Assembly: GCA_903901855.1 (NCBI GenBank) | Contig: CAIUSP010000073.1 | Coordinates: 1 to 35,281, forward strand | Direction: 5' to 3' | DNA length: 35,281 bases | From: an uncultured bacterium | GTDB taxonomy: Bacteria; Actinomycetota; Thermoleophilia; Solirubrobacterales; 70-9 | Part shown: one piece after another, positions 3,613-32,607 of the stretch | Numbering within the stretch: the first letter of the stretch is position 1 | How the letters are laid out: every line of letters begins with the position of its first letter | Program-made: the position numbers and the translations under genes | Notes under the pieces: model-generated | Database searches by the model: none | Told to the model about the DNA's origin: nothing | What the model saw: the letters and a program-made list of their open reading frames with translations, nothing else

Positions 3613-5193
3613 TCAGCCCTTTCCGGAGAGCGACCAGACGAGGCTCGTCAAGGAGCCCACCCGCGCACGAAGCTTGGCCTTCCCTGTGATTGAGAGCTTG
3701 GCCGTGACCGGCACACCCTTGCGGACCCCGATCTTCACAGTCTGGGTCCACCTGCCCTTGATCAGTTGCTCGATCACCGCGTTGCCCTTCAAGGGCGGTC
3801 TGAACCACGCGGTAGCGGCCTTCGAGGAGACGCGCTCGACGGTGAATGGGAAGGTGAATGCGGTCATCGCCGGCTTGGGTGGTTGTTCGGCAACGGTGAA
3901 CGGCCAAGTCGCGGTGTTGGGGAAGAGACCAACGTTGCACTGCCGCGTGCAGCCCTCTGGATTGCTCACCGGGTCGTAGGGGACCTGGTCGCGGAGCTTG
4001 AAGTAGAGGAACAGATCCGCACCCTTCTGCCAGAGCATTCGCATCGCGCGTTGAATCGTGTCGGCTTGACTGCGAAGGCTGGGTGCCCCCGGATCGGGGG
4101 GATTGCTGCCGGTCCAGAACTCGGTCGCCCAGATCGAGCGACCACCGGACACTGACGGCGTGACTTGGCCGAGTCTCTCGATCGCCCTCAGCAGACGCGT
4201 TCCGCGCTCGAAGTTGGAGGGACGGAGATCCGAGTTCGGGTAGTACGGAAGCGCACCGATGTCCCGGTTGGCGGAAGGGATGGCGTTGTGGGCGAAGACG
4301 TCGAGTTTCGGTTTGGAAGAGCAGTCGACTTTCACCTGCCCACCGGACTCGCGAACGCAGAACATCTGCCGCATGAAGTCGAGCGGGCCGGTGCGTACCT
4401 GAGCGAGATCGGAATCGGTACCCGGTCCCGCCGGTGCGGTCCCCGGTCCGATCACTACCGCGCCGGGTTGAGCAGCGTGCACTGCGTCGTAGAAGGCGTT
4501 GAGCATCGAGCGGTAATGACCTGCCACGAAGGGCGAACCGTCGGGGTTGAGCTGGGGGTTCATGAAGCTGAACAGGTTGGCTTCGTTCCAAGCCTGGAGG
4601 TATCTGACTCGCGGGAGAGGCGACCCTGATCCTGGCGGGGTGTACGAACCCGAGTAGCGGGTTGCGACCGCGGCACCGAAAGCTGCGAATGCGGAGGCGC
4701 TCGGCTTCCAGGTGCCCTTCCCTGCGCACTCAGGGGGAATCTGGCCCTCGGCACACTCGAGGGGAGGTCTGCCCACTCCCTCGGCGAACTCCGGCGCTCC
4801 CCAGATGGTGAGCAGGACCTGCATCCCTCGTTGGTTGGCGGCGCGCACCGCCGCGTCGTAAGCGGAGAAGTCGTAGTTCGGATCCGCGGGGCTGCTCGGT
4901 GCGGTGGGAGCGACCGACTCGTCCACCAGGGCATTCCTCCAGATCAGATCGAGGCGGATCAACCCCGTCCCGCCCTCGTCCGCGCGATCGAGCCAGAAGG
5001 CGCGCTGTGGCTCGGGAGTGTCCAGGTCCATGAATTCCGCGTTGTCGTAGAGCGCGAGTTGGTAGAGCGGGCGATCGGCTGCCGCCGCCGATCCGGGAGG
5101 AACCGAAGACCAGATTCCCAAGATCAGGAAGAGCGCCGCGAAGACAAGCGTCAAGTACCGGAGCGAAACCGCAGACGTCTTGGTCCGGGTCAT
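3613..5193 (-). CDS. Secreted glycoside hydrolase-like protein (GH-A clan fold)
   Basis: 526 aa. It probably cleaves a beta-linked glycan outside the cell. Residues about 11-39 form a signal peptide (LRYLTLVFAALFLILGIW followed by an Ala-rich site). The next 350 residues look like a TIM-barrel glycosidase of the GH5/GH39 kind: VLLTIWGAPEF, then QAWNEANLF with Glu204 as the expected acid/base, and SIWATEFWTG with Glu358 as the expected nucleophile. The last 90 or so residues form a beta-rich domain (FTVERVSSKAATAWFRPPLKGNA...). Substrate and exact family cannot be set from sequence alone. The start ATG overlaps the stop of the upstream small membrane protein (ATGA), so the two are co-translated. 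A strong terminator follows. Confidence 0.75.
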   Translation of the reverse strand: MTRTKTSAVSLRYLTLVFAALFLILGIWSSVPPGSAAAADRPLYQLALYDNAEFMDLDTPEPQRAFWLDRADEGGTGLIRLDLIWRNALVDESVAPTAPSSPADPNYDFSAYDAAVRAANQRGMQVLLTIWGAPEFAEGVGRPPLECAEGQIPPECAGKGTWKPSASAFAAFGAAVATRYSGSYTPPGSGSPLPRVRYLQAWNEANLFSFMNPQLNPDGSPFVAGHYRSMLNAFYDAVHAAQPGAVVIGPGTAPAGPGTDSDLAQVRTGPLDFMRQMFCVRESGGQVKVDCSSKPKLDVFAHNAIPSANRDIGALPYYPNSDLRPSNFERGTRLLRAIERLGQVTPSVSGGRSIWATEFWTGSNPPDPGAPSLRSQADTIQRAMRMLWQKGADLFLYFKLRDQVPYDPVSNPEGCTRQCNVGLFPNTATWPFTVAEQPPKPAMTAFTFPFTVERVSSKAATAWFRPPLKGNAVIEQLIKGRWTQTVKIGVRKGVPVTAKLSITGKAKLRARVGSLTSLVWSLSGKG

Positions 5194-5775: not shown

Positions 5776-5803
5776 GTCCTGCTGATTAGGTTAGGTGATG
5801 ACT

Positions 5804-7780
5804 ATGACCCCCAAGGCTGAAGAAAGTTTCGGAAGGACAGGCCGGACGCGATCGAGAGCCGGCACTGCCGCGTTGCTGACCGGTGTGACCGCAGCAACCG
5901 GGCTGTTCTATCTCGCCATGCGAGGCGGCGGCTACGAACTGACAGCCAGAGCAGAGGTCGGCCTGCTGGCGTGGTGGGCGGTCGCCGTGTTGGGTGTACT
6001 GGGCGTGGTTCCCGTCGGAAAACCGGGACGATCGGCTTTCGTCATGCTCGGCGCGATGGCGGCCCTCGCCGCGTGGACGGCAATCGCGATCATTTGGTCG
6101 CCGAGTGCCGAGCGCGGGATGGTCGAGGTCGAACGAGTGCTGACTCTCGGGGGGATCCTCGCGCTGGCGTTGCTGGCCACCCCGCCCCGACATGCGAAAG
6201 CGCTGCTCTGGGGGGTAGCCGCGGCGATCGTCGCGGTGGCCGCGATCGGGATCCTCTCCCAACTGCGAAAGGGTTGGTTTCCCGACTACGGGACGGCCGA
6301 GGATCTCGGCGGGCAGGTCCTCGTGAGGCTCAGCTACCCGCTTCGCAACTGGAACGGCTTGGCCGAGATGTTCGCCATGGGGGGTGCGCTGTTGACTGGA
6401 CTCGGTGCGGTTTCCCGCAAGCCGCGATGGGCTGCCCTCGCCTGTGCCGTACTGCCCGTGCTGGTGCTGGCCTCGTATCTGACCCTCTCACGCACCGGCA
6501 TCGGTTGCGCGCTGGTGGCGCTGCTCGTGGTGATCGCACTGCATCCACTGAGGAGGCAGGTCGCGGTGATCACCACGATCGGCTTGATCACGGGAACGCT
6601 CGCAGTCGGCGTCGTGGCGGCGATACCCGGTGCGAGCGAAGGGGGAGCGAGCGGAGTGGAGGCTGCTTCGATCATCGTCGTGCTGCTCCTGTGCTGCCTG
6701 CTTTCGGCGTGGTTGCTGACGGCGCTCGGTCGCTACGGGGCGCTGTCCTGGATACAACGCCTCGGCAGCGGGCTCGATCTCGGCACGGTGAAGATCCTCA
6801 AAGCCGCAGCAGTGATTGGCACAGCAGCTCTGGTGCTGTTCGCGATCCCGAGCCTGCTGAACGGCTGGAGCGAGTTCAAGAAGCCCGATACCCCCGGTGC
6901 CAGCGCTGATCGCTACACCAGCGCCACCGGCAGCGGGCGCTACCAGTGGTGGAGTCTGGCGGTGGAAGCCGGTGCGGAGAGCCCGCTGACCGGCGCGGGG
7001 CCCGGGACCTTCGAGTTCGTCTGGGCCGAGGACGGAACCATCCCTGGCTATGTCAGAGACGCCCACTCGCTCTACCTGGAGTCGTTCGGTGAGCTCGGAG
7101 TGATCGGCCTGCTGCTCGCCCTGACCCTCGTCGCCACTCCCCTGATCCGCTCGGTGCGCGGATCGTTCGGTGGATCCGGGAGGATCGAGCGCGGGGCCTT
7201 CGCCGCAAGTGCAGGTGCGATGGCGGCATTCGCATTGGCAGCGGGATTCGACTGGGCCTGGGAGACCACCGCGCTGACCGCGGCGTTCATGCTGGTGGCG
7301 GCGGGGACACTGCGACTCGGAGGGTCCGAGGAAACGGCGGAATCCACCCCTAGGGGGCGTGGCATCGCCGGGAGGGTCGCGCTCGCCGCCTCTGGTCTTG
7401 TTGCCGTGGTGGTGATCTCGATCCCTCTCAACATGCAGAGAGCGCTCGATCGAAGCGCATCGGAACTGAGTGCAGGGAATCTGCAAGCCGCGCTCGACGA
7501 GGCAGGCGAAGCCGGCAGGATCGAGCCCTTCGCCGCCTCGCCGCTGATCGCGCAGACGGTCGTCTACGAAAGCGCGGGTGATTACCGGGCCGCACTCGAC
7601 ACCGCGCGAGAGGCAGTGCGGCGCGAGTCGACCAACTGGCAGACCTGGTACCTGCTTGCGAGGATCCAGCGCTGGCTCGATGACGACGCGGCGGCGGCCA
7701 TCTCCTACCAGCGGGCGGTCGATCTGAACCCACGCTCGGAGCGGCTCAGCATGCCATACGAGGAATCGACTCTCAGATAG
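5804..7780 (+). CDS. O-antigen ligase/polymerase-like membrane protein (Wzy/WaaL type) with C-terminal TPR
   Basis: About 658 aa. It probably polymerises lipid-linked glycan repeats or transfers a finished glycan to its acceptor at the outer membrane face. The first 430 residues or so contain about ten or more hydrophobic helices. The Wzy_C signature loop follows ATGSGRYQWWSLAVEAGAE...GAGPGTFEF, with HSLYLESFGELGVIGLLLAL after it. After more helices, about 110 residues form TPR-like helices (SAGNLQAALDEAGEAGRIEP, ...YLLARIQRWLDDDAAAAISYQ). The start at ATG 5804 is preferred because AGGTGA lies five bases upstream; GTG 5795 and ATG 5798 are alternatives. It is convergent with the sugar transferase, with only two bases between stop codons. 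The neighbours support a surface-glycan role. Confidence 0.85.
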   Translation: MTPKAEESFGRTGRTRSRAGTAALLTGVTAATGLFYLAMRGGGYELTARAEVGLLAWWAVAVLGVLGVVPVGKPGRSAFVMLGAMAALAAWTAIAIIWSPSAERGMVEVERVLTLGGILALALLATPPRHAKALLWGVAAAIVAVAAIGILSQLRKGWFPDYGTAEDLGGQVLVRLSYPLRNWNGLAEMFAMGGALLTGLGAVSRKPRWAALACAVLPVLVLASYLTLSRTGIGCALVALLVVIALHPLRRQVAVITTIGLITGTLAVGVVAAIPGASEGGASGVEAASIIVVLLLCCLLSAWLLTALGRYGALSWIQRLGSGLDLGTVKILKAAAVIGTAALVLFAIPSLLNGWSEFKKPDTPGASADRYTSATGSGRYQWWSLAVEAGAESPLTGAGPGTFEFVWAEDGTIPGYVRDAHSLYLESFGELGVIGLLLALTLVATPLIRSVRGSFGGSGRIERGAFAASAGAMAAFALAAGFDWAWETTALTAAFMLVAAGTLRLGGSEETAESTPRGRGIAGRVALAASGLVAVVVISIPLNMQRALDRSASELSAGNLQAALDEAGEAGRIEPFAASPLIAQTVVYESAGDYRAALDTAREAVRRESTNWQTWYLLARIQRWLDDDAAAAISYQRAVDLNPRSERLSMPYEESTLR

Positions 7781-7782
7781 AC

Positions 7783-9213
7783 CTAGCGAGCACCTCGGCC
7801 GCCGAAGACGGCCGAGACCGTGCCGATCAACAGACGCAGATCTTCTCGCAGCGACCAAGAGGTGACGTAGGCATAGTCCAGCCTCAGCATGTCCTCGTGC
7901 GGGATGTCGCTGCGGCCGTAGACCTGCCACGGGCCGGTCAAGCCCGGGCGCATCTCGGAGCGCGCGTAGAAGCGGCCTTTCACAAGTTTGGCCTCATCGA
8001 GGGGGAGCGGTCTCGGGCCGACGATGCTCATCTCTCCACGCAGGACGTTCCAGAGCTGAGGGAGTTCGTCGATCGACCAGCGCCGCAAATACCTCCCGAG
8101 AGGCGTTATCCGCGGATCGTCGGAACGCTTGACGAGGATCCGATCGTTTCCGCCAGCGAGTTCCCTGTGGCCAGCTTCGGCGCCCTCGGACATGGTCCTG
8201 AACTTCAGCATCTCGAAGTGTCCCTCCGCACTGCCTTCTCGCAACTGACGGAAGATCGCCGGGCCGGGCGATCCCAGCCTCACGGCCAGACCGACGGCGA
8301 TCAGCAGAGGCGAAGCAACGAGCAACAGGACGAGCGCTGAGACCACATCCAAGCCACGCTTGATGGCGAGGGCCACGGAGTTGCTGCGGCCAAGCCTCAG
8401 CGAGACGATCGGTTGGCCCTCGAGTCGGTAGATCGACTCGACCGGAATCAGGGTGTCTGGACCGCCCGCGACCGAATCGAGGGCGATGCCTCTGGCCGAC
8501 GCCGCATCGATCAGTCCCAGCTGGGCCTCCGAGTCGAGACCGCGTGAGGCGACGATGACACGGCCTGCCCCGGTGGCCGAGACTGCCTGATCGAGCAGGT
8601 CCATCCAGTCGCGCTCCCCTGCCGCCCGCTCGAAATGGATCGATTCCTGCTCCCGCCCGTCGTGGATCGGCGTGAGTTCATCGGCTCCGCTGCCAAGCGA
8701 GAGCACTCCCGCCGGGACGAGGCCGGTCGACTGCTGCCGATCCAGCCGACGGAGAATCAGGCCGGCCTCTTCCGCCTCCCCGAAGACCAGCACACGCTGG
8801 TCGAGCGCGCCACTTCGGCGGAGCAGGAGCCGCCCGATTCCCCTCGCCAACAAGACGAGCACCACTGCGGCGATCCAGAGGACCGCCGGGGCGCGGATCT
8901 CCGTGATCCCCGAGAAGAGCGCAGAACCGACGAGCACGATGAGCCAGACCCAGGCCGTACTGATCAGGAAAACGGGGCCGATCTCGTCCGCCAGCGAGAA
9001 GTCGACCCGACGCGCCGGTAAGGCATAGAGACCTGCCGCTTGGGCCGCGGCGAACCATGCCGGCAGGAGGATGAGGAAAGGGACCAGCTGTTTGACCGGG
9101 ATGAGATCGCGGTCGGAGAAGAGGTTGACCAGTACCTCGCAACCGAAGGCGAGGCACAAGGCGAGCAGATCGCAGACGGCGAGCGCCAGGAATATACGCC
9201 GGCTCTCCCTCAC
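7783..9213 (-). CDS. Polyprenyl-phosphate sugar-phosphate transferase (WbaP/WcaJ type)
   Basis: About 476 aa. It starts a glycan by moving a sugar-1-phosphate from a nucleotide sugar to undecaprenyl phosphate on the cytoplasmic membrane face. Four N-terminal helices, a central CoA-binding-like domain and another helix lead to the C-terminal catalytic domain: KRGLDVVSALVLLL, GSPGPAIFRQLREG, FEMLKFRTM, TPLGRYLRRWSIDELPQL and MSIVGPRPLP, all hallmarks of the family. An in-frame start exists at 9369, but GTG 9213 (VRESRRIFLALAV) is preferred: it overlaps the wecG stop as GTGA and has GGAGG about 10 bases upstream. The sugar used cannot be read from sequence. Confidence 0.93.
   Translation of the reverse strand: MRESRRIFLALAVCDLLALCLAFGCEVLVNLFSDRDLIPVKQLVPFLILLPAWFAAAQAAGLYALPARRVDFSLADEIGPVFLISTAWVWLIVLVGSALFSGITEIRAPAVLWIAAVVLVLLARGIGRLLLRRSGALDQRVLVFGEAEEAGLILRRLDRQQSTGLVPAGVLSLGSGADELTPIHDGREQESIHFERAAGERDWMDLLDQAVSATGAGRVIVASRGLDSEAQLGLIDAASARGIALDSVAGGPDTLIPVESIYRLEGQPIVSLRLGRSNSVALAIKRGLDVVSALVLLLVASPLLIAVGLAVRLGSPGPAIFRQLREGSAEGHFEMLKFRTMSEGAEAGHRELAGGNDRILVKRSDDPRITPLGRYLRRWSIDELPQLWNVLRGEMSIVGPRPLPLDEAKLVKGRFYARSEMRPGLTGPWQVYGRSDIPHEDMLRLDYAYVTSWSLREDLRLLIGTVSAVFGGRGAR
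7794..7816. terminator. Inverted repeat at convergent gene ends
   Basis: CTCGGCCG (7794-7801), seven bases, then CGGCCGAG (7809-7816) is a perfect 8-bp stem. It lies inside the last codons of the sugar transferase and 13 bases after the stop of the ligase gene. No T-tract follows, so it would be a U-less hairpin at best. Coding constraint on Gly/Arg codons could also produce it. Confidence 0.3.
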
Positions 9214-10040
9214 CGGACCTGGTCCTCCGATGCCCTGCCGATCAATCTGGGTGGCTGTCTGAAGATCGCGAACACGAATCGCGGGATTATCGACAGGTAG
9301 CGCCTCCACAACCTGCGCGGCTCCTGGATCAGACGGTAGAGCCAGTGGAGTCCGAGCCTCCCGATCCAACCGGGGGCATCGCTCCTCAGTCCAGCGTGGA
9401 TGTCGAACGCCGCGCCGACGCCGATCAGGACGACCGACCCGCCGAGCTCCGGCAGATGGTTCGCCATCCAGAGTTCCTGCTTGGGCGTGGAGATGCCGAT
9501 GAATACGACCCGGGCCCCGCTGCTGGAGATCAGTTCGAGCACATCACGATCCTCGCGCTCACCGGCTTCTCGCATCGGCGGACTGTGGGTTCCGGCTACC
9601 TCCAGCCCGCCGAATCGTTCGGTCATACGATCGGCGAGCAGATCAGCCACATCAGGCTGACCGCCATAGAAGAAGACCGGCCAACCGCGTCGAGCGGCGC
9701 GTTCACACACCGCCAACATCAAGTCGGGGCCGTAGACCCGCTCGATCTCTGCGGATCCGGCGCGTTTGCCAGCCCAGACCATCGGCATCCCGTCGGGTAG
9801 ATCCATCCCCGCACCCTGAAGGGCTCGATCGACGGCCTCGTCTGCCTGAGCCTCCATCACGCCGTGGACTCCGGTCAGACAGAGGTAGCTTCGCTGACCG
9901 CCGTCGAGCCAGTTGCCGATCGCCTCCAGCGTGCGAGCCTGATCCACACAGGCGATCTCTACCCCGAGCACATCGACTCTCTCCCAGGCAGGTGCCTGCT
10001 CTCCCCCGATCCGATTCGGCCCTATGGTTCTCTCTTCCAT
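9210..10040 (-). CDS. WecG/TagA/CpsF-family glycosyltransferase
   Basis: About 276 aa. Enzymes of this family add a sugar (for example ManNAc or ManNAcA) to a lipid-linked first sugar. Visible family motifs are DVLGVEIACVD near the start, GMDLPDGMPMVWAGK, YGPDLMLAVCE, VFFYGGQPDVADLLADRM and STPKQELWMANH. The C-terminal LHWLYRLIQEPRRLWRRY is also typical. The ATG at 10040 lies in the palindrome CCATGGCC that also holds a start codon of the divergent epimerase gene. GTG 9971, with GGGAG upstream, is an alternative start just before the conserved region. It is followed by the sugar-phosphate transferase with a four-base overlap, so the two should act in sequence. Confidence 0.92.
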   Translation of the reverse strand: MEERTIGPNRIGGEQAPAWERVDVLGVEIACVDQARTLEAIGNWLDGGQRSYLCLTGVHGVMEAQADEAVDRALQGAGMDLPDGMPMVWAGKRAGSAEIERVYGPDLMLAVCERAARRGWPVFFYGGQPDVADLLADRMTERFGGLEVAGTHSPPMREAGEREDRDVLELISSSGARVVFIGISTPKQELWMANHLPELGGSVVLIGVGAAFDIHAGLRSDAPGWIGRLGLHWLYRLIQEPRRLWRRYLSIIPRFVFAIFRQPPRLIGRASEDQVR

Positions 10041-11079
10041 GGCCACGGATACAAGCAGGGATAAGCAGCAGACGGATGGCGGTGGAACCGCGCTCGTCGC
10101 TGGTGCGGGAGGTTTCATCGGGGGCTACCTCACACGCACCCTGGGAGATCTCGGGTGGAACGTCAGGGCGGTCGACTCGAAACCGATCGGGGACTGGCAC
10201 CAGATCGACCAGCGGGCAGACAGTCGGGTCCTCGACCTGTCGCTCCTCGCGAGCTGCAGAGAAGCCACCGATGGCGTGAGCCGCGTCTACGACCTGGCGG
10301 CGGACATGGGAGGGATCGGATTCATCGAGAACTACAAAGCCGACTGCATGCTCTCGGTACTGATCGGTAGCCACCTCCTGCTGGCGTCCCGCGACGCCGG
10401 GGTGGAGAGATTCTTCTTCTCGTCATCCGCTTGTGTCTACGCAGCCGACCGCCAGACCGCTCCCGACGCAACCGCGCTCGTCGAAGCCGACGCGTACCCG
10501 GCGATGCCAGAAGACGGCTACGGCTGGGAGAAGCTCTTCATCGAGCGGATGTGTCGCCACTTCAGCGAGGATTTCGAACTGGAGACGCGAGTGGCGCGGT
10601 ACCACAACGTCTACGGGCCCCACGGCTCATTCGAAGGGGGCCGCGAGAAGGCCCCGGCAGCAATCTGCCGCAAGGTGGCACAGGCGGTGATCGACGGGAC
10701 CGACACGATCGAGATCTGGGGAGACGGCGAGCAGTCGCGGAGCTTCATGTACATCGACGACTGCATCGAGGGAACCCTGCGGATAATGGACGGTGACTCG
10801 CGCGAACCGGTCAACCTCGGAAGCGCCGAGCTGGTGACGATCAACCAGTTAGTCGGTCTGGTCGAGGAGATAGCCGGTGTGAGTCTGGAGCGTGAGTACC
10901 TGACCGATGCCCCCCAGGGCGTGCGCGGCCGAAACAGCGACAACACGATGATCTCCGAGATCTATGGCTGGGAGCCGTCGATCTCGCTGCGCGACGGAAT
11001 GGAGAAGACCTACCGCTGGGTCTACGACGAGGTGACCAACTCCTCCTCGTCCGGTGCAAAACCGAGCACCCATTCATAG
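10039..11079 (+). CDS. GDP-mannose 3,5-epimerase-like NAD-dependent epimerase
   Basis: 346 aa from ATG 10039 (ATG 10024 is an alternative). It probably converts GDP-D-mannose to GDP-L-galactose and/or GDP-L-gulose using bound NAD. The Rossmann motif GAGGFIGGY is near residue 22. Further matches to GME are LAADMGGIGFI, SSSACVYA, DGYGWEKLFIERMC, RYHNVYGPHG, GGREKAPAAICRK and SFMYIDDCIEG. Cys132, Tyr161, Lys165 and Lys204 fall at a constant offset of 13 from the Arabidopsis GME catalytic residues Cys145, Tyr174, Lys178 and Lys217. No clear ribosome site is seen. It is divergent from wecG, and its 3' end overlaps the sulfotransferase 3' end by 58 bases. A bacterial glycan gene set is its context. 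Confidence 0.88.
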   Translation: MATDTSRDKQQTDGGGTALVAGAGGFIGGYLTRTLGDLGWNVRAVDSKPIGDWHQIDQRADSRVLDLSLLASCREATDGVSRVYDLAADMGGIGFIENYKADCMLSVLIGSHLLLASRDAGVERFFFSSSACVYAADRQTAPDATALVEADAYPAMPEDGYGWEKLFIERMCRHFSEDFELETRVARYHNVYGPHGSFEGGREKAPAAICRKVAQAVIDGTDTIEIWGDGEQSRSFMYIDDCIEGTLRIMDGDSREPVNLGSAELVTINQLVGLVEEIAGVSLEREYLTDAPQGVRGRNSDNTMISEIYGWEPSISLRDGMEKTYRWVYDEVTNSSSSGAKPSTHS

Positions 11080-11783
11080 GTCTCGACAGCCCGAGGGGTA
11101 TCCGGGTGGCTGCGAATAGCCCTCCCGAGATCGTCGAGGCTCTCGGAGGAGGAATCCTCATAGGTAGCGCGCGAAGCCACCCCTCGGGAGATCCTCATCT
11201 CCCGTGCCCGTCGGGAGATCTCCTCACTCGACGACACGGGGATCGCGAGGTCGGTGCCGAACCTGGCGTTGATGGCGCGCACGGTGAAGGATGGGTCGGC
11301 GACTACGCGATCGAACGGGCAGACCACCACGCCTCCTTCCTCGATAAGTGTGGAGAGCCGGCGGTGGTAGTCGGCCCAGAGCGGGACGAAGTGACGAGCC
11401 GCTGCCTGACCGCCATCGAAGACCGCCAGGGACTCGACAGCATCCCGAGGATCACGGATCACCAGCGCGGTCGGGATCCCCAACTGCGCAGCCCGCAACA
11501 CCTGCCCCTCCATATGGGTGTGATGCCCGCCGACCAGCCCGGGATTCCCATCCAAGACCGCGCAGTAAGCGAAGGTATTGGCCGAGAAGGGAAACCCCTC
11601 GACGCAGAAGTCGGACGACCGGGACACGATCTCGTCCGAGCGGAACGACTTCCATGCCTTGAGTATCGGAAGAGCCCTAGGTCGACGACCGAGGTAGCGC
11701 CGGAGCAGGCGCGTCCGATCCACCCGCGGAGCAATCTGGAGATCGGACAGCAGGGATTTCGACGGCTGTCGACTGCCAATCAC
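11022..11783 (-). CDS. Sulfotransferase-like protein
   Basis: 253 aa. It probably moves sulfate from PAPS onto a sugar hydroxyl. The 5'-phosphosulfate loop is seen as EGFPFSANTF, which departs from the usual GxPxSGTT form. The 3'-phosphate-binding motif is clear as VIRDPRDAVESL, with FDRVVADPSFTVRAINARFG further on. The enzyme lacks a signal peptide, consistent with acting in the cytoplasm on lipid-linked or nucleotide-linked sugar. It starts at GTG 11783, ten bases after the methyltransferase stop, and is the last gene of the minus-strand glycan operon. Its final 58 bases overlap the end of the epimerase gene on the other strand. The altered first loop leaves some doubt about activity. Confidence 0.75.
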   Translation of the reverse strand: MIGSRQPSKSLLSDLQIAPRVDRTRLLRRYLGRRPRALPILKAWKSFRSDEIVSRSSDFCVEGFPFSANTFAYCAVLDGNPGLVGGHHTHMEGQVLRAAQLGIPTALVIRDPRDAVESLAVFDGGQAAARHFVPLWADYHRRLSTLIEEGGVVVCPFDRVVADPSFTVRAINARFGTDLAIPVSSSEEISRRAREMRISRGVASRATYEDSSSESLDDLGRAIRSHPDTPRAVETYEWVLGFAPDEEELVTSS

Positions 11784-11793
11784 AGGCAGCTGA

Positions 11794-12810
11794 TCACCTC
11801 TCGGTGGTCTTCAACCAGATACTCGAGGGGAAGTTCCCGGTCGAAGGATCAGGAGCGATTCCCCGCTCCAATCGGCCCGGTACGAAATCCGGGATGAGCC
11901 CGACCAGCCGCTCGGGATCGGATTGGTGCATCGCGGAAAGCGAGCCGAGGACCTCGAGGCGCGGATTGCCAATCAGCAAGGCAGTCAACAGAGCAGTCTC
12001 CTGGAAGTCCCAGAAGTCGCTCAACACTTCCGGACGGTAGGCGTAGGGCAGGAAGACGTCATGAACATGGATGTAGACGCCCGGGGCCAATGCCGGTATC
12101 CCCTCGAGGTAGATCCTCACCAGCTCAGATCCGGCCTTGAGGTTGTGACTCGAGTCGATGAAGAGGATGTCACCTGGCTCGAGAAACTCGAAAGCCTCCA
12201 CCGGCAGGAGTTGACCGTGTTCGGGTGTCACCTCGACCTGCTCCAGACGAAGCAGCGGATCAGCTGCGAACGGGTCCACGCACCTGATTCGGCACGGCCC
12301 TCTGCCCTCCTCGAGATTCAGCGCCGCCGCGTCCGACATCACCGCGGTGGAGGCTCCCGATCCCAGCTCGAGGACCTTTCCGGGCGCCAGAGATCGAACC
12401 ATGCAGTGGAGGACCTCGGCTTCGATCGGTCCAAACCTGAAACTGATCCCGCGCTGTTCGACGCTCTCCACCAGAGAGGCGGCATCGACCTCCCCGATGT
12501 AGTCACGGATCGATTCCTCCAGCCAGGTGAACTGGCCCTCTGAATCCCAGTCGATGCTCCCGAGATCGATCTCTCGCCGCCACATCTCGGGGTTCTCCTC
12601 GAGCCACCGACGGCTCTGCAGGGGGGAGTAGTAGGTCACCGGTGTAAGGCTCAGCCTGACCTTGCCGAGATCGCCGGCAGGAACGGCGACCCGGTCCAGC
12701 AGGCGATTCACTGCGAACAGGAGTTGCTTGATCAGGCCAGACAAGCCAGAACTCGACGAGCCGCTGACCGCGGTCCTCGCCGCGCGATCTGTCGAGGAGC
12801 GACGGTTCAC
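11794..12810 (-). CDS. Class I SAM-dependent methyltransferase (Methyltransf_24-like)
   Basis: 338 aa. The SAM-binding motif I is GKVLELGSGASTAVMSDAA, followed by IRCVDPFAAD (motif II acid) and ILFIDSSHNLKAGSELVRIYLEGI, as in Methyltransf_24-type enzymes. The segment GVYIHVHDVFLPYAY is also typical of that group. About 120 N-terminal residues precede the fold, starting with a Ser/Arg-rich stretch. GTG 12810 overlaps the stop of the next upstream methyltransferase as GTGA. The target is unknown; its place between two other methyltransferases and a sulfotransferase suggests a glycan sugar. Confidence 0.8.
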   Translation of the reverse strand: MNRRSSTDRAARTAVSGSSSSGLSGLIKQLLFAVNRLLDRVAVPAGDLGKVRLSLTPVTYYSPLQSRRWLEENPEMWRREIDLGSIDWDSEGQFTWLEESIRDYIGEVDAASLVESVEQRGISFRFGPIEAEVLHCMVRSLAPGKVLELGSGASTAVMSDAAALNLEEGRGPCRIRCVDPFAADPLLRLEQVEVTPEHGQLLPVEAFEFLEPGDILFIDSSHNLKAGSELVRIYLEGIPALAPGVYIHVHDVFLPYAYRPEVLSDFWDFQETALLTALLIGNPRLEVLGSLSAMHQSDPERLVGLIPDFVPGRLERGIAPDPSTGNFPSSIWLKTTER

Positions 12811-13433
12811 GATCGGCCGACCGCGATCAGCGACTTGGTCGAGGGGCCAACACGCTCGCGCAGGATCTCCGCCTTCGGGAACAGACTCGAGAGATCGTTC
12901 GAAGTGAGCAGGGTTATTTCATCGTAGGGCTCGTTTCTCACTGCGAGCGGCCAGACTTTCCGCTGAAGTGTGCGGGGAAGGAACTGGTAGCCGGGAAGCA
13001 GCACGTGCGGCTCGACCGGAAACCACTTGTTGGGGGTCTGGACGAAGAACCGCGCCGCGACTCGCTGGATCTCGCTCGAGAACCTCTGCCAATCGGTCGG
13101 CAGGAGATGCTCGATCACCGAGTTCGAAAACGCGATGTCGAACTCACCGTCTGCGAAGGGAAGAGCGAGAGCATCCCCCTGTCGGTAGTAGCGATTCGGA
13201 CCGTCATAGCCCGGGAGCGAGGGATCACGATCGATCCCGACCACCTCGATGCCTGGGTCGAGATCGTTCAACCAGCCTGCGCGACCGCAACCGACATCCA
13301 GGATCCGCTCCCCCGGCCGAGGCTCCATCTGCTCGACGAACAGCCTCAGGCGCTTCTTCCTGGCTCTCACCGAAAGCGCCGAAGCCGTCCGTGCCCGAAG
13401 CCCCGGCCGGTCGTAGGTGGGAGGCGAGCTCAA
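12807..13433 (-). CDS. Class I SAM-dependent methyltransferase (Methyltransf_11-like)
   Basis: 208 aa. Motif I is ERILDVGCGRAGWLNDL, followed by VVGIDRDPS, DALALPFADGEFDIAFSNSVIEHL and ARFFVQTPNKWFPVEPH, the usual order of a ubiquinone/menaquinone-biosynthesis-type methyltransferase fold. It may methylate a glycan or a lipid head group. It starts at TTG 13433, overlapping the stop of the preceding methyltransferase as TTGA; no strong ribosome site is seen, so it may depend on coupled translation. It is the middle one of three consecutive methyltransferase genes that share little sequence with each other. Confidence 0.82.
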   Translation of the reverse strand: MSSPPTYDRPGLRARTASALSVRARKKRLRLFVEQMEPRPGERILDVGCGRAGWLNDLDPGIEVVGIDRDPSLPGYDGPNRYYRQGDALALPFADGEFDIAFSNSVIEHLLPTDWQRFSSEIQRVAARFFVQTPNKWFPVEPHVLLPGYQFLPRTLQRKVWPLAVRNEPYDEITLLTSNDLSSLFPKAEILRERVGPSTKSLIAVGRS

Positions 13434-14143
13434 TTGACCTCCCAGCAGTCACCGCGTCGGTACCACTCGACCAGCGATTGCCGGTCGACTGCGAACTCAC
13501 CCCCGAGCTGCTTTCGCCAGTCCTTGGCGATTTGATTGATGCCTGACAGGTGGATGTCGTCGAGGACGAAGGCGCAGCGCTCGGCGAGACGCGGCCCCAG
13601 ACAAGGCAGCGCCCCCCATCGCGACCATGCGGTCTCGGCCGGGCCGTCGACGATCGCGAGCTCGACCGATCGATCGGGAACGGCCACGCCAGCCATGTCG
13701 TACCAGCGCAGTGGCGCTGGCGGAGTAATCTCGCCCTGATGATCGACGAGAGGCGCATGGATCAACTCGATGCTTGCGGGACCCGGATCTCCGACCATCC
13801 GTTCGACCGTCTCGAGCCAGTCGGCGTCCTGATCGACCGATCGGATCTGGAGGGGAAGGTCGAGATTGCGCGCAAGCGCCACCAGGATCGCAGTCATCAC
13901 GCCTGATCCGAACTCGAGGATGTTCTCTCTGCGATTGATCACCACCTCGTTGCAGACCTGGCGAGCTAGATCAGGGTTTACCGAGTAGATGCTCCAGGGC
14001 AGGTACCGGTCGCCGATCAGCGGCTGGAGAGCAGACATCGAGTAGGCGGCGCCTGAGCGGCCGATGCGCCAATCGCGGATCGACAGTCGCGCGGTCCTCG
14101 GCAAGGTCGACAGGTTGGTTCGGATTCGCTCGAAAGAACTCAT
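13430..14143 (-). CDS. Class I SAM-dependent methyltransferase-like protein
   Basis: 237 aa. The SAM-binding region reads ENILEFGSGVMTAILVALAR, followed by IRSVDQDADWLETVERMVG and later VELAIVDGPAETAWSRWGALP and CAFVLDDIHLSGI, which resembles Methyltransf_24-type folds. The C-terminus (GGEFAVDRQSLVEWYRRGDCWEVN) is not recognised. It begins nine bases after the stop of the first ATP-grasp gene and ends in a four-base overlap with the next methyltransferase. The substrate is not known. Confidence 0.72.
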   Translation of the reverse strand: MSSFERIRTNLSTLPRTARLSIRDWRIGRSGAAYSMSALQPLIGDRYLPWSIYSVNPDLARQVCNEVVINRRENILEFGSGVMTAILVALARNLDLPLQIRSVDQDADWLETVERMVGDPGPASIELIHAPLVDHQGEITPPAPLRWYDMAGVAVPDRSVELAIVDGPAETAWSRWGALPCLGPRLAERCAFVLDDIHLSGINQIAKDWRKQLGGEFAVDRQSLVEWYRRGDCWEVN

Positions 14144-14152
14144 CTTGCGAGC

Positions 14153-15049
14153 CTAGGCCTTCACCGCCTTTGCTGAATAGTGGAGGCGCTCTTGGTCGGG
14201 CCAGTACGTACCGAGTTCGAAGTCGAGCGATACCGGTCTGAACGGGATCATCGCATCGCCTGTGTAGGGAGTGAGTTCGGAGAAATAGAAGTGATCGCGA
14301 TCGAGGAGAAAATCCACGCGGAGCGCGTCGAATCCTTCAGCCAGAGACTCTGCGAACCGTCCCGCCTGCTGCAGGCAGGTCGGCTTCGGGATCTCGCCAG
14401 GGTCGGAGTTGTCGAGCTGGGAACCGATCATCTCCCAGGTAGGGGAAAAGAGCACCACCAGGTGTTGATGGCCCCGACCCTGATCGAGTTGCCAGAGCGC
14501 CACCTTTCCATCGAAGACGTAGCACTTGAGGTCAGGCGGAACCACCTCTCCGCTACCCACGAATCTCTCTACGAGATAGCAGCGCTCGGCCTTGGTGTAC
14601 CCCCAGGGCCAGCGCCACGCCGAAGGGCCAAATGGCATGTCCAGCCAACCAACTGTTTGTTCCGTCAGCCGAGTTACCGAATCGAGATCGAGTTGTCCGC
14701 GCCCTTGGTGAGTCAACCCACTGGCGTTGTTCGGCTTCAGGATCCATCTCTCAGGCAGCTCGAGCCGAGTGAGTTCCCGCAAATCATCTCCTGCCCAGAT
14801 CAGCTCGGTAACAGGCAGCCGCGGGCAGCGTTGGAGTGCGAAACGTCTGGCCGCAAGCTTGTCGCAACACATGGCGATCTCGGGCCGACGATCGAAGAGG
14901 ATCCGCCAGAGAACACGTTCGTTGAAGCTTCTGGGTGGGCTCAGCCGGGGCCAGCGGTGGTGGCCGTTGAGAAACCGAAGCCTCCATGCGACACCCGGAG
15001 GCAGCCGCCTTCCAAGCGAATGCGAGACGCGCCTCAGGACTGAATTCAT
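14153..15049 (-). CDS. TupA-like ATP-grasp protein
   Basis: About 298 aa. ATP-grasp enzymes join a carboxylate to an amine or another nucleophile through an acyl phosphate. TupA is the named member, linked to teichuronopeptide synthesis in an alkaliphilic Bacillus. The conserved blocks are FNERVLWRILFDRRPEIAMC, the CDKLAAR segment, ERWILKPNNASG (ATP lysine), LVERFVGSG, DLKCYVFDGKVALWQ, LRVDFLLDRDHFYFSELT and TGDAM. An in-frame start exists at 15097, but ATG 15049 is preferred because it overlaps the upstream paralogue as ATGA. It is paralogous to the next gene. The ligated group is unknown. Confidence 0.83.
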   Translation of the reverse strand: MNSVLRRVSHSLGRRLPPGVAWRLRFLNGHHRWPRLSPPRSFNERVLWRILFDRRPEIAMCCDKLAARRFALQRCPRLPVTELIWAGDDLRELTRLELPERWILKPNNASGLTHQGRGQLDLDSVTRLTEQTVGWLDMPFGPSAWRWPWGYTKAERCYLVERFVGSGEVVPPDLKCYVFDGKVALWQLDQGRGHQHLVVLFSPTWEMIGSQLDNSDPGEIPKPTCLQQAGRFAESLAEGFDALRVDFLLDRDHFYFSELTPYTGDAMIPFRPVSLDFELGTYWPDQERLHYSAKAVKA

Positions 15050-15939
15050 CTGCCTGCCACCTCGTCGAGCGAGGGCAGGGTCCAGAAATCTCCCCACTCG
15101 CGATCGAAGCGATGGGGCATGAACCTGGTCAGGCCTGAGCCCGAGAAAAGCGTCAGCTCGCCAAACCAGATCTCGCCGTCGGCCTCATAGAGGTCTACCC
15201 GGCCGAAGTCGAGATCGCCGGAGATTGCCTCGGCGGCCTCGAAGAGCTTCGCCTTCATCTCCGGCAGCTCGACTTCGCCGATCCTCTGCTTGTTGTCGCG
15301 CACCGACAAGATCTTCCAATCCCGGTCGAGATAAGCGCGATGAGGGTCGCTGTAGCGATCGGAGCAGACCAGGATCACTTCTACGCGTCCGTGGAAGACG
15401 AAGAACTTGATGTCGGCGGGATGCCCCGACCCTGTGCCAACGAACTCCTCCACCAGCAGACCGTGCTCGGCTGCTGCCTCGCACCAGTACTGTCGAGTTC
15501 CGGCGCGGGCATTCGGTTGGTAGGGCAGATCGACCCACCCCTCTGTCTCGATCGCAAGTTCCTGAGCACGCTGCTCGCTCACCTTTCCCTCACCGAAAAT
15601 CACCCTGTGGGTCGAGTTGTTCGGTTTCAGTACCCAGCGCTCAGGCAAATCGAGTCCGACCAGATCAGCAACATCCCTCCCCTTCCAGATCGTTTCGGGC
15701 ACCCGTATCCAGGGGCATCGCTCGAGCGCCATCTGCTTGGAGGCATGTTTGTCGGAGGCGGTGACGAAGATCGGTCGCCGGTCGTAGAGGGTCCGCCAGA
15801 TCACCTTCTCGTTGAAGTCCCTGGGTTGATCGAGGTTGGGCCAGCGGCGATGATGGAGCAGGTAGCGAAGCTGCCAGACAAGCCTGTCAGGGAGTCGCTT
15901 TCCGATCTGCCGTTCTAATGGGATGAAGGGATCTCGCAT
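15046..15939 (-). CDS. TupA-like ATP-grasp protein, second copy
   Basis: 297 aa. It has the same architecture as the gene after it: LPDRLVWQLRYLLHHRRWPNLDQPRDFNEKV (read in parts), WRTLYDRRPIFVTASDKHAS, ERWVLKPNNSTH, LLVEEFVGTGSG, DIKFFVFHGRVEVI, FGRVDLYEADGEIWFGELT and SGSGLTRF. The two copies are clearly related but diverged, which argues for different substrates rather than a recent duplication. Its start lies three bases after the GT4 stop. It most likely acts on a sugar acid or an amino acid of the surface polymer; this is inference from the family and the neighbours. Confidence 0.83.
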   Translation of the reverse strand: MRDPFIPLERQIGKRLPDRLVWQLRYLLHHRRWPNLDQPRDFNEKVIWRTLYDRRPIFVTASDKHASKQMALERCPWIRVPETIWKGRDVADLVGLDLPERWVLKPNNSTHRVIFGEGKVSEQRAQELAIETEGWVDLPYQPNARAGTRQYWCEAAAEHGLLVEEFVGTGSGHPADIKFFVFHGRVEVILVCSDRYSDPHRAYLDRDWKILSVRDNKQRIGEVELPEMKAKLFEAAEAISGDLDFGRVDLYEADGEIWFGELTLFSGSGLTRFMPHRFDREWGDFWTLPSLDEVAGR

Positions 15940-15942
15940 GCC

Positions 15943-17004
15943 TCAGGCGACCGCAATCTCCACGGCCTTCTTCAAATCGTCTACCCAGATATCGGGCTTG
16001 AAGTCCTCCACGCGTTCCCTGCCTGCAGCTGCCAGACGCAAGCGGAGAGCCTCGTCTCCGGCCAACCTCTCCATCGCCTGCGCGAGAGCAGCCGCATCCC
16101 CCTCTGGCACAACCAATGCGGTTTCTCCGTCGGTCGCGAGTCCGCCAAGGGCGGCGCCAACAGAGTCGCTCGAGACCACCGCCAACCCTTGACACATCGC
16201 CTCGGCGACCACGATCCCCCACGGCTCCTTGAATGTGCGTGTGGTGATGGAGGGGACCACCAGCACATCGCTGGCCGCATAGACCTCGCGCATTTGCTCA
16301 CGCGCGACCGAATGTTGAACACTGATACCCGCCGGATACCCACCATCAGGACTCCAGGTGCCATCGCCGATCATCCGAAGGGTCGCCCCTTGGTCGGCGA
16401 GCCCGCTGCGCCTCCAAGCATCCAGCAAGATGTGCGGACCCTTTTCGATCTCTTGCCTGCCGGCGAAGAGGAATTTCAGACCGTCACCTCGGCTCATCGA
16501 CACCGGCGTCGTCCAGAAATCGAGATCGACCGGGTCCATCGAGGTCACCACGGTCTCAGCTCCCAGCGAGGCGGCGAGCCTCGACTGCGGCTCCCCGTAA
16601 GAGAGCACCGCGCTCGACCATCTGAACACCCGGCGGAGAATCCGCCTGCCCACCCGCCAGCGCAGAGTTCCGGGAACCTCCTGAAGACCCACCCAGACGA
16701 TCAGCGGCAAACCCGCCCTGTGAGTGGAGAACGCCGCAAGGGAAAACGATGTGGGTCCCTGCGTCTCGATCATCACCGCGCCGTAACGGCCCGAGCGAAT
16801 CAGCTTCGGTATCTCCCAAGTCGTGGCATCGACCTGGGGAACTGAATCGGGAAGTCGGGCGAGACCCCCTCCGTGAGGGACGTCGTTTGCGAGGTCCACC
16901 ACCTCGATCGAGATCTCCGCAGCCAATCGCTCGATCGCCGCAACCCGATTGGGCAGAACCTGTGCGAGCAGGATCAGTAGGGGTTTCTCAGTCGTAGTCG
17001 TCAC
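15943..17004 (-). CDS. Glycosyltransferase family 4
   Basis: About 353 aa. A GT-B-fold retaining glycosyltransferase that adds one sugar from a nucleotide sugar. The C-terminal domain shows FLFAGRQEIEKGPHILLDAW, LRMIGDGTW, YAASDVLVVPSI and the EPWGIVVAEAMCQG motif with the conserved Glu pair, followed by SDSVGAALGGLATDGETALV. The N-terminal domain begins EKPLLILLAQVLPNR. Longer in-frame starts exist up to 17136, but GTG 17004 (VTTTTEKPLL) fits the domain start. TACCCT lies nine bases ahead of that GTG, and a 15-bp palindrome lies a further 50 bases upstream. It is the first gene of a seven-gene minus-strand operon ending with the sulfotransferase. Confidence 0.88.
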   Translation of the reverse strand: MTTTTEKPLLILLAQVLPNRVAAIERLAAEISIEVVDLANDVPHGGGLARLPDSVPQVDATTWEIPKLIRSGRYGAVMIETQGPTSFSLAAFSTHRAGLPLIVWVGLQEVPGTLRWRVGRRILRRVFRWSSAVLSYGEPQSRLAASLGAETVVTSMDPVDLDFWTTPVSMSRGDGLKFLFAGRQEIEKGPHILLDAWRRSGLADQGATLRMIGDGTWSPDGGYPAGISVQHSVAREQMREVYAASDVLVVPSITTRTFKEPWGIVVAEAMCQGLAVVSSDSVGAALGGLATDGETALVVPEGDAAALAQAMERLAGDEALRLRLAAAGRERVEDFKPDIWVDDLKKAVEIAVA

Positions 17005-17055
17005 CGGGGTGTCAGGGTAACCCGGCTTCACGCACAACCTTGGTGTGCTGGCTAA

Positions 17056-17070
17056 GCGATCAGTGATCGC
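17056..17070. promoter_or_regulatory. 15-bp perfect palindrome upstream of glycan operon
   Basis: GCGATCA-G-TGATCGC is a perfect inverted repeat with a one-base centre. It lies in the 169-base gap between the peroxiredoxin stop (17174) and the GT4 start (17004). No T-tract follows on either strand, so it looks more like an operator than a terminator. The rest of this gap holds no gene. Confidence 0.35.
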
Positions 17071-17173
17071 GCGGGAAGAGTCGCGGCGCTGCGGCGTGAA
17101 AGCCGCTCCAAAGGGCGAGACACCAGCCGGCATCACTTCGCCGACCGAAGTCTGCCCCGGAACCTTCAGACAA

Positions 17174-30396: not shown

Positions 30397-32607
<2,211 letters not shown>

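Follow-up and report, generated by a model that had tools for sequence, protein, structure and literature searches.

A GDP-mannose 3,5-epimerase gene paired with a GT26 glycosyltransferase gene in a probable surface-polysaccharide locus of a streamlined actinobacterium

GDP-mannose 3,5-epimerases (GMEs; reviewed in PMC8787198) are already known from bacteria: one characterised enzyme has a proposed lipopolysaccharide role, and others belong to A201A and, probably, bleomycin synthesis (PMC6678494). Among GT26 glycosyltransferases, residue roles have been described for TagA, which takes UDP-ManNAc as its donor (PMC6493773), and enzymes of the WecG family are believed to attach a second sugar once a monosaccharide is on the lipid (PMC11340318). 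A TupA-like ATP-grasp domain of Campylobacter jejuni amidates capsule glucuronate (PMC11800379), and one review takes a Lys or Arg of the PAPS loop as defining for PAPS-dependent sulfotransferases (PMC11625862). We compared these systems with genes in a 35,281-nucleotide stretch of DNA (hereafter the window), which comes from the 1.66-Mb, 92%-complete genome of a streamlined actinobacterium from the order of Solirubrobacteraceae, a draft in many fragments that is probably a MAG. Its GME adds one more member to a known bacterial group. What is new here is the pairing of GME with a GT26 enzyme, which, like the amide signature described below, had escaped an earlier note on this DNA.

The polysaccharide locus takes up 7.8 to 17.1 kb of the window, and the genes that the earlier note had placed in it are where it put them. 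The GME gene (10024..11079, plus strand, starting at 10024 or 10039) lies divergently beside a gene for a GT26 glycosyltransferase of the WecG/TagA/CpsF type (9210..10118, minus strand; PF03808, 4.9e-59); this is the WecG-type transferase of the earlier note, found just outside the range given there for the cluster. The 5' ends of these two genes overlap as open reading frames, and both true starts are probably near 10040, the position of the likely start Met of the GT26 gene. On its other side, the GME gene converges with a gene for a sulfotransferase-fold protein (11022..11783, minus strand), the two 3' ends overlapping by 58 bases. All other genes in the earlier note's cluster are on the minus strand, and GME, alone on the plus strand and divergent or convergent to its neighbors, is therefore not in one operon with them.

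The rest of the locus supports the surface-glycan setting proposed earlier. A polyprenyl-phosphate hexose-1-phosphate transferase, the initiating enzyme (7783..9369, minus strand; PF02397, 4e-56), scores 294.5 bits against TIGR03025, just under the cut-off of 295.55, and is followed by a Wzy/O-antigen-ligase-like membrane protein with 11 hydrophobic stretches and a C-terminal TPR region (5795..7780, plus strand; PF04932, 2.5e-13). On the far side of GME, all on the minus strand, are a GT4 glycosyltransferase (15943..17136; PF00534, 4.7e-23) and two TupA-like ATP-grasp ligases (14153..15097, PF14305 at 4.2e-14, and 15046..15939, PF14305 at 1.5e-21), the GT4 and the two ATP-grasp proteins of the earlier note. 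The three methyltransferases claimed for the cluster fared less evenly: the one at 12807..13433 is clear (Methyltransf_11, 4.7e-13) and that at 11794..12810 is good (Methyltransf_24, 1.3e-7), but the protein at 13430..14143 is a weak, probable SAM methyltransferase-like match below the cut-off (Methyltransf_24, 0.0029). Besides the initiating transferase and the Wzy-like protein, no Wzx turned up in the scanned ORFs of the window; elsewhere in the genome, a single Polysacc_synt match clears the cut-off.

By homology, the epimerase is a genuine GME rather than a chance resemblance. When the PDB was searched with phmmer, the best matches were the plant GMEs 8sg0 and 2c59 (E about 1e-88 to 5e-88), while the next families, including the best GDP-fucose synthase, came in at about 1e-28 to 6e-28. 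Foldseek with the AlphaFold model likewise returned plant GMEs as its 14 best chains without exception (E about 1e-28 to 6e-32). Residues C137, Y166, K170, and K209 correspond to plant C145, Y174, K178, and K217 at a constant offset of 8, exactly as first read from the sequence, and this set is common to 89 of 89 aligned GMEs; in Escherichia coli Fcl the Cys is conserved, but GME Lys217 is replaced by His. A conserved Arg is present as well, equated with plant Arg306 by motif and not by structure superposition. The phylogeny that the earlier note had suggested as a check puts the enzyme inside GME: in a quick maximum likelihood tree, GMEs, including those of plants, split from Fcl, Gmd, RmlB-like, CDP-dehydratase-like, and UXS-like enzymes at 99%, and with long outgroup branches the placement leans also on identity, which is 44% to plant GME versus 19 to 27% to other SDRs. 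The predicted reaction is conversion of GDP-D-mannose to GDP-L-galactose or GDP-L-gulose.

Bacterial GMEs are numerous: at least 571 GME-like loci were confirmed in GTDB genomes. The best 80 of these, drawn from many phyla, gave a sample biased to near relatives. In the loci compared, the window enzyme is about 59 to 69% identical to bacterial GMEs and is thus a bacterial-type GME, not one acquired from a plant. Distribution among relatives is patchy, with GME in 11 of 151 genomes when the window's own is counted.

A GT26 gene is present in 22 of 89 GME loci and stands within 600 nt of GME in 19, against approximately 4.3 adjacent pairs expected if GT26 were placed at random inside its locus. 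Among other SDR ORFs, 1 of 44 adjoined GT26 (Fisher p 0.002; counting the ten Acidobacteriota loci as one raises it to 0.05). GME-GT26 pairs were found in several phyla, the pairing label changes 12 times on the GME tree, and at least three GT26 lineages take part. The two genes are divergent in the window and in loci L018 and L031 and co-directional in most others. One further locus (L165), first taken as GME-adjacent, was set aside, because the neighbor of its GT26 gene matched at only 4e-31, which probably makes it a different SDR. Given the second-sugar role ascribed to the WecG family (PMC11340318), the most economical reading of this recurrence is that GT26 would use the GME product as its donor. 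We tentatively extend this reading to GME-paired GT26 enzymes at large, which might use GDP-L-galactose or GDP-L-gulose to make an L-hexosyl-hexose-PP-lipid, as parts of a widespread L-galactose cassette.

The GT26 enzyme itself has an intact catalytic set. It matches the TagA structure 7mpk at 7.5e-31 and keeps the equivalents of TagA Asp65, Arg83, Gln167, Glu168, Asp191, and Arg221. Pro replaces the uracil-stacking Tyr137 of TagA, a change that was considered as a sign of a GDP-linked donor and dropped when Pro was also seen in 27 of 49 other sampled GT26 enzymes. In a tree whose background is paralogues from the same genomes, the window enzyme sits in a cross-phylum clade of 16 rows (support 94), apart from the GT26 enzymes typical of its class. 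A first tree had made this clade appear specific to GME, a view abandoned once the same-genome paralogues were added, with only 8 of the 16 rows adjoining GME; a second, very divergent lineage of Acidobacteriota type adjoins GME in 10 of 13. Ser precedes the PKQE motif in 14 of 16 members of the window's clade, where others have Gly, but no single residue sets the GME-linked members apart. With no such residue, and with half of the clade away from GME, donor specificity could not be read from sequence.

The idea that this cluster makes a sulfated, methylated L-galactan by PAPS-dependent sulfation fails chiefly at the protein encoded at 11022..11783. This protein, the one sulfotransferase-like product of the cluster, has no Pfam or NCBIfam match, but a model built from an alignment of ten same-class relatives (pLDDT 81) gave PAPS-dependent sulfotransferases for all 50 best Foldseek matches listed (probability up to 1.00, E about 1e-3, TM about 0.4), suggesting a remote relationship. 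His88 and His90 are kept, as is the 3'-phosphate motif RxxxDxxxS (R110, D114, and S118), and the genome has ordinary sulfate activation genes, sat and apsK. The fold, the catalytic His, and the phosphate motif of the proposed sulfotransferase stand. Its PAPS-loop residue does not: Phe66 (codon 11588-11586) occupies a position where Arg is found in all 46 relatives, drawn from across the phylum, that could be scored, and its codon, TTC, would need two or more base substitutions to become one for Arg, so a single sequencing error is not the cause. As the catalytic PAPS-loop residue is missing, sulfation is doubtful, and catalysis of it by this protein appears improbable, although unusual chemistry is possible. 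No relative was found in the other 88 GME loci or on viral contigs, no Sulfotransfer_1 protein was found in the genome, and a literature search returned nothing directly on a sulfated L-galactose polymer from bacteria. After the PAPS-loop residue test, we gave up the sulfated galactan as the main explanation and now consider it unlikely; the likeness to algal sulfated galactans drawn in the earlier note goes unsupported along with it.

Harder to set apart from the GME-to-GT26 route is the proposal that the GME product goes to the GT4 or some other transferase, that GT26 uses UDP-ManNAc or UDP-Glc, and that adjacency reflects common clustering of exopolysaccharide genes. GT4 is also a frequent neighbor of GME in Actinomycetota (14 loci), the GT26 enzymes with established activities take UDP-sugars, the window enzyme retains the TagA catalytic set with its Asp191 ribose contact, and WecB is encoded in the genome, making UDP-ManNAc a possible donor. 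Immediate GT26-GME adjacency nevertheless recurs across phyla and in both arrangements, far from the single case among other SDR ORFs, and the TagA sugar contacts Thr37 and Asn39 are lost in the window's clade, which has Leu and Gly instead. We regard this proposal as a credible competitor, held with less than even confidence. Less probable still is that the epimerase, as a relative of GME, yields a different set of products, such as mostly GDP-L-gulose or GDP-altrose, or is used for a glycoconjugate or antibiotic, as in bleomycin or A201A. Such an enzyme would have the same fold and residues, and bacterial GMEs do serve antibiotic pathways (PMC6678494), but the gene lies in a polysaccharide locus with an initiating transferase, GT26, GT4, and a Wzy-like protein, and no NRPS or PKS families were found among the ORFs scanned.

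In place of sulfate, amidation of a uronic acid is the better-supported decoration. Both ATP-grasp proteins exceed the curated PF14305 cut-off of 25 (77.4 and 53.1 bits), and the genome encodes UGDH, which would supply UDP-glucuronate; with the TupA-like pair and UGDH both present, an amidated uronic acid can be predicted more specifically than sulfate. Next to UGDH and to a bifunctional PGI/PMI is a GMPP-like nucleotidyltransferase, whose nearest family, NF052502, is matched at 261 bits, under the cut-off of 440, and which matches plant GMPP structures at 5e-53. Two PGM/PMM-family genes are also present, the GMP-PMI fusion (TIGR01479) is absent, and neither Gmd nor Fcl is among the five GME-like SDR matches of the genome. 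A supply of GDP-mannose is therefore likely, even with the GMPP match below its NCBIfam cut-off.

Taken together, the locus probably directs a surface polysaccharide or exopolysaccharide. In the pathway that we favor, GDP-mannose would be made elsewhere in the genome, and the initiating transferase (7783-9369) would load hexose phosphate onto the lipid carrier. GT26, encoded back to back with GME, would then add the second sugar, for which the GME-derived L-hexose is the likeliest candidate, and the GT4 enzyme would extend the chain. TupA-like ligases would amidate a uronic acid, the methyltransferases may cap or decorate the chain, and the Wzy/ligase-like protein would polymerise or attach it. 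A surface glycan containing L-galactose or L-gulose is the likely product. If the GT26 assignment is true, it would define a new GT26 donor class and a cassette spread over Acidobacteriota, Verrucomicrobiota, Planctomycetota, Pseudomonadota, and Actinomycetota. The recurring pair offers a concrete, testable prediction of enzyme and donor, and the lost PAPS-loop Arg is a warning against annotating a sulfated galactan here.

Each component has a described counterpart from which it departs. With the PAPS-dependent sulfotransferases (PF00685/PF13469), the window protein has the fold, the His, and the 3'-phosphate-binding motif in common, but it lacks the PAPS-loop Lys or Arg and falls under all Pfam cut-offs. 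The ligases belong, like the C-terminal domain of C. jejuni Cj1438 and Bacillus TupA, to PF14305 and to a capsule-type locus; unlike those, they are a pair of stand-alone proteins, and their substrate is a predicted one. GT26 has the catalytic Asp, Arg, Gln, and Glu set of WecG, TagA, and HfsJ and would be expected, as they are, to add the second sugar to a lipid-linked monosaccharide, but it differs from TagA in its Leu/Gly in place of Thr37/Asn39 and in having GME as its neighbor gene. The epimerase resembles MfGM35E of Methylacidiphilum fumariolicum and plant GME in family, fold, the C/Y/K/K set, and the conserved Arg, and MfGM35E has itself been proposed to work in a polysaccharide-type gene context (PMC6678494). 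In contrast to both, the window GME, known here from its sequence, belongs to another host and another cluster and is paired with a GT26 gene.

Outside the polysaccharide locus, a sulfatase gene of family PF00884 (22058-23812, minus strand) encodes a secreted or lipoprotein-like protein with a CCPSR formylglycine motif. Some 5 kb separate this gene from the glycan cluster, with the peroxiredoxin and SDR genes in between. This enzyme suggests scavenging of sulfate esters rather than sulfation. Among actinobacterial relatives, where five sites were noted, genes of the sulfotransferase-like family of the window protein at 11022-11783 (minus strand) stand in tandem, with about three divergent copies to an array, and members are also fused, to a GT2 in locus L109 and to a methyltransferase-like domain in L108. 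The PAPS-loop Arg is kept in those members that were checked.

A secreted protein of 526 amino acids (3613-5193, minus strand) matched no Pfam family and is possibly a glycoside hydrolase, judging from its WNEAN motif. Its gene is close to that of the Wzy-like membrane protein (5795-7780, plus strand), and it may trim the polymer. The window also encodes a large catalase-peroxidase-like peroxidase (PF00141; 733 amino acids; 30397-32598, minus strand).

A highly divergent lineage of GT26, the WecG/TagA/CpsF glycosyltransferase family, was observed at ten compared loci of Acidobacteriota. These proteins are missing TagA's Asp191 ribose contact, as well as the conserved PK of PKQE, and their genes are almost always directly adjoined by that for GDP-mannose 3,5-epimerase.
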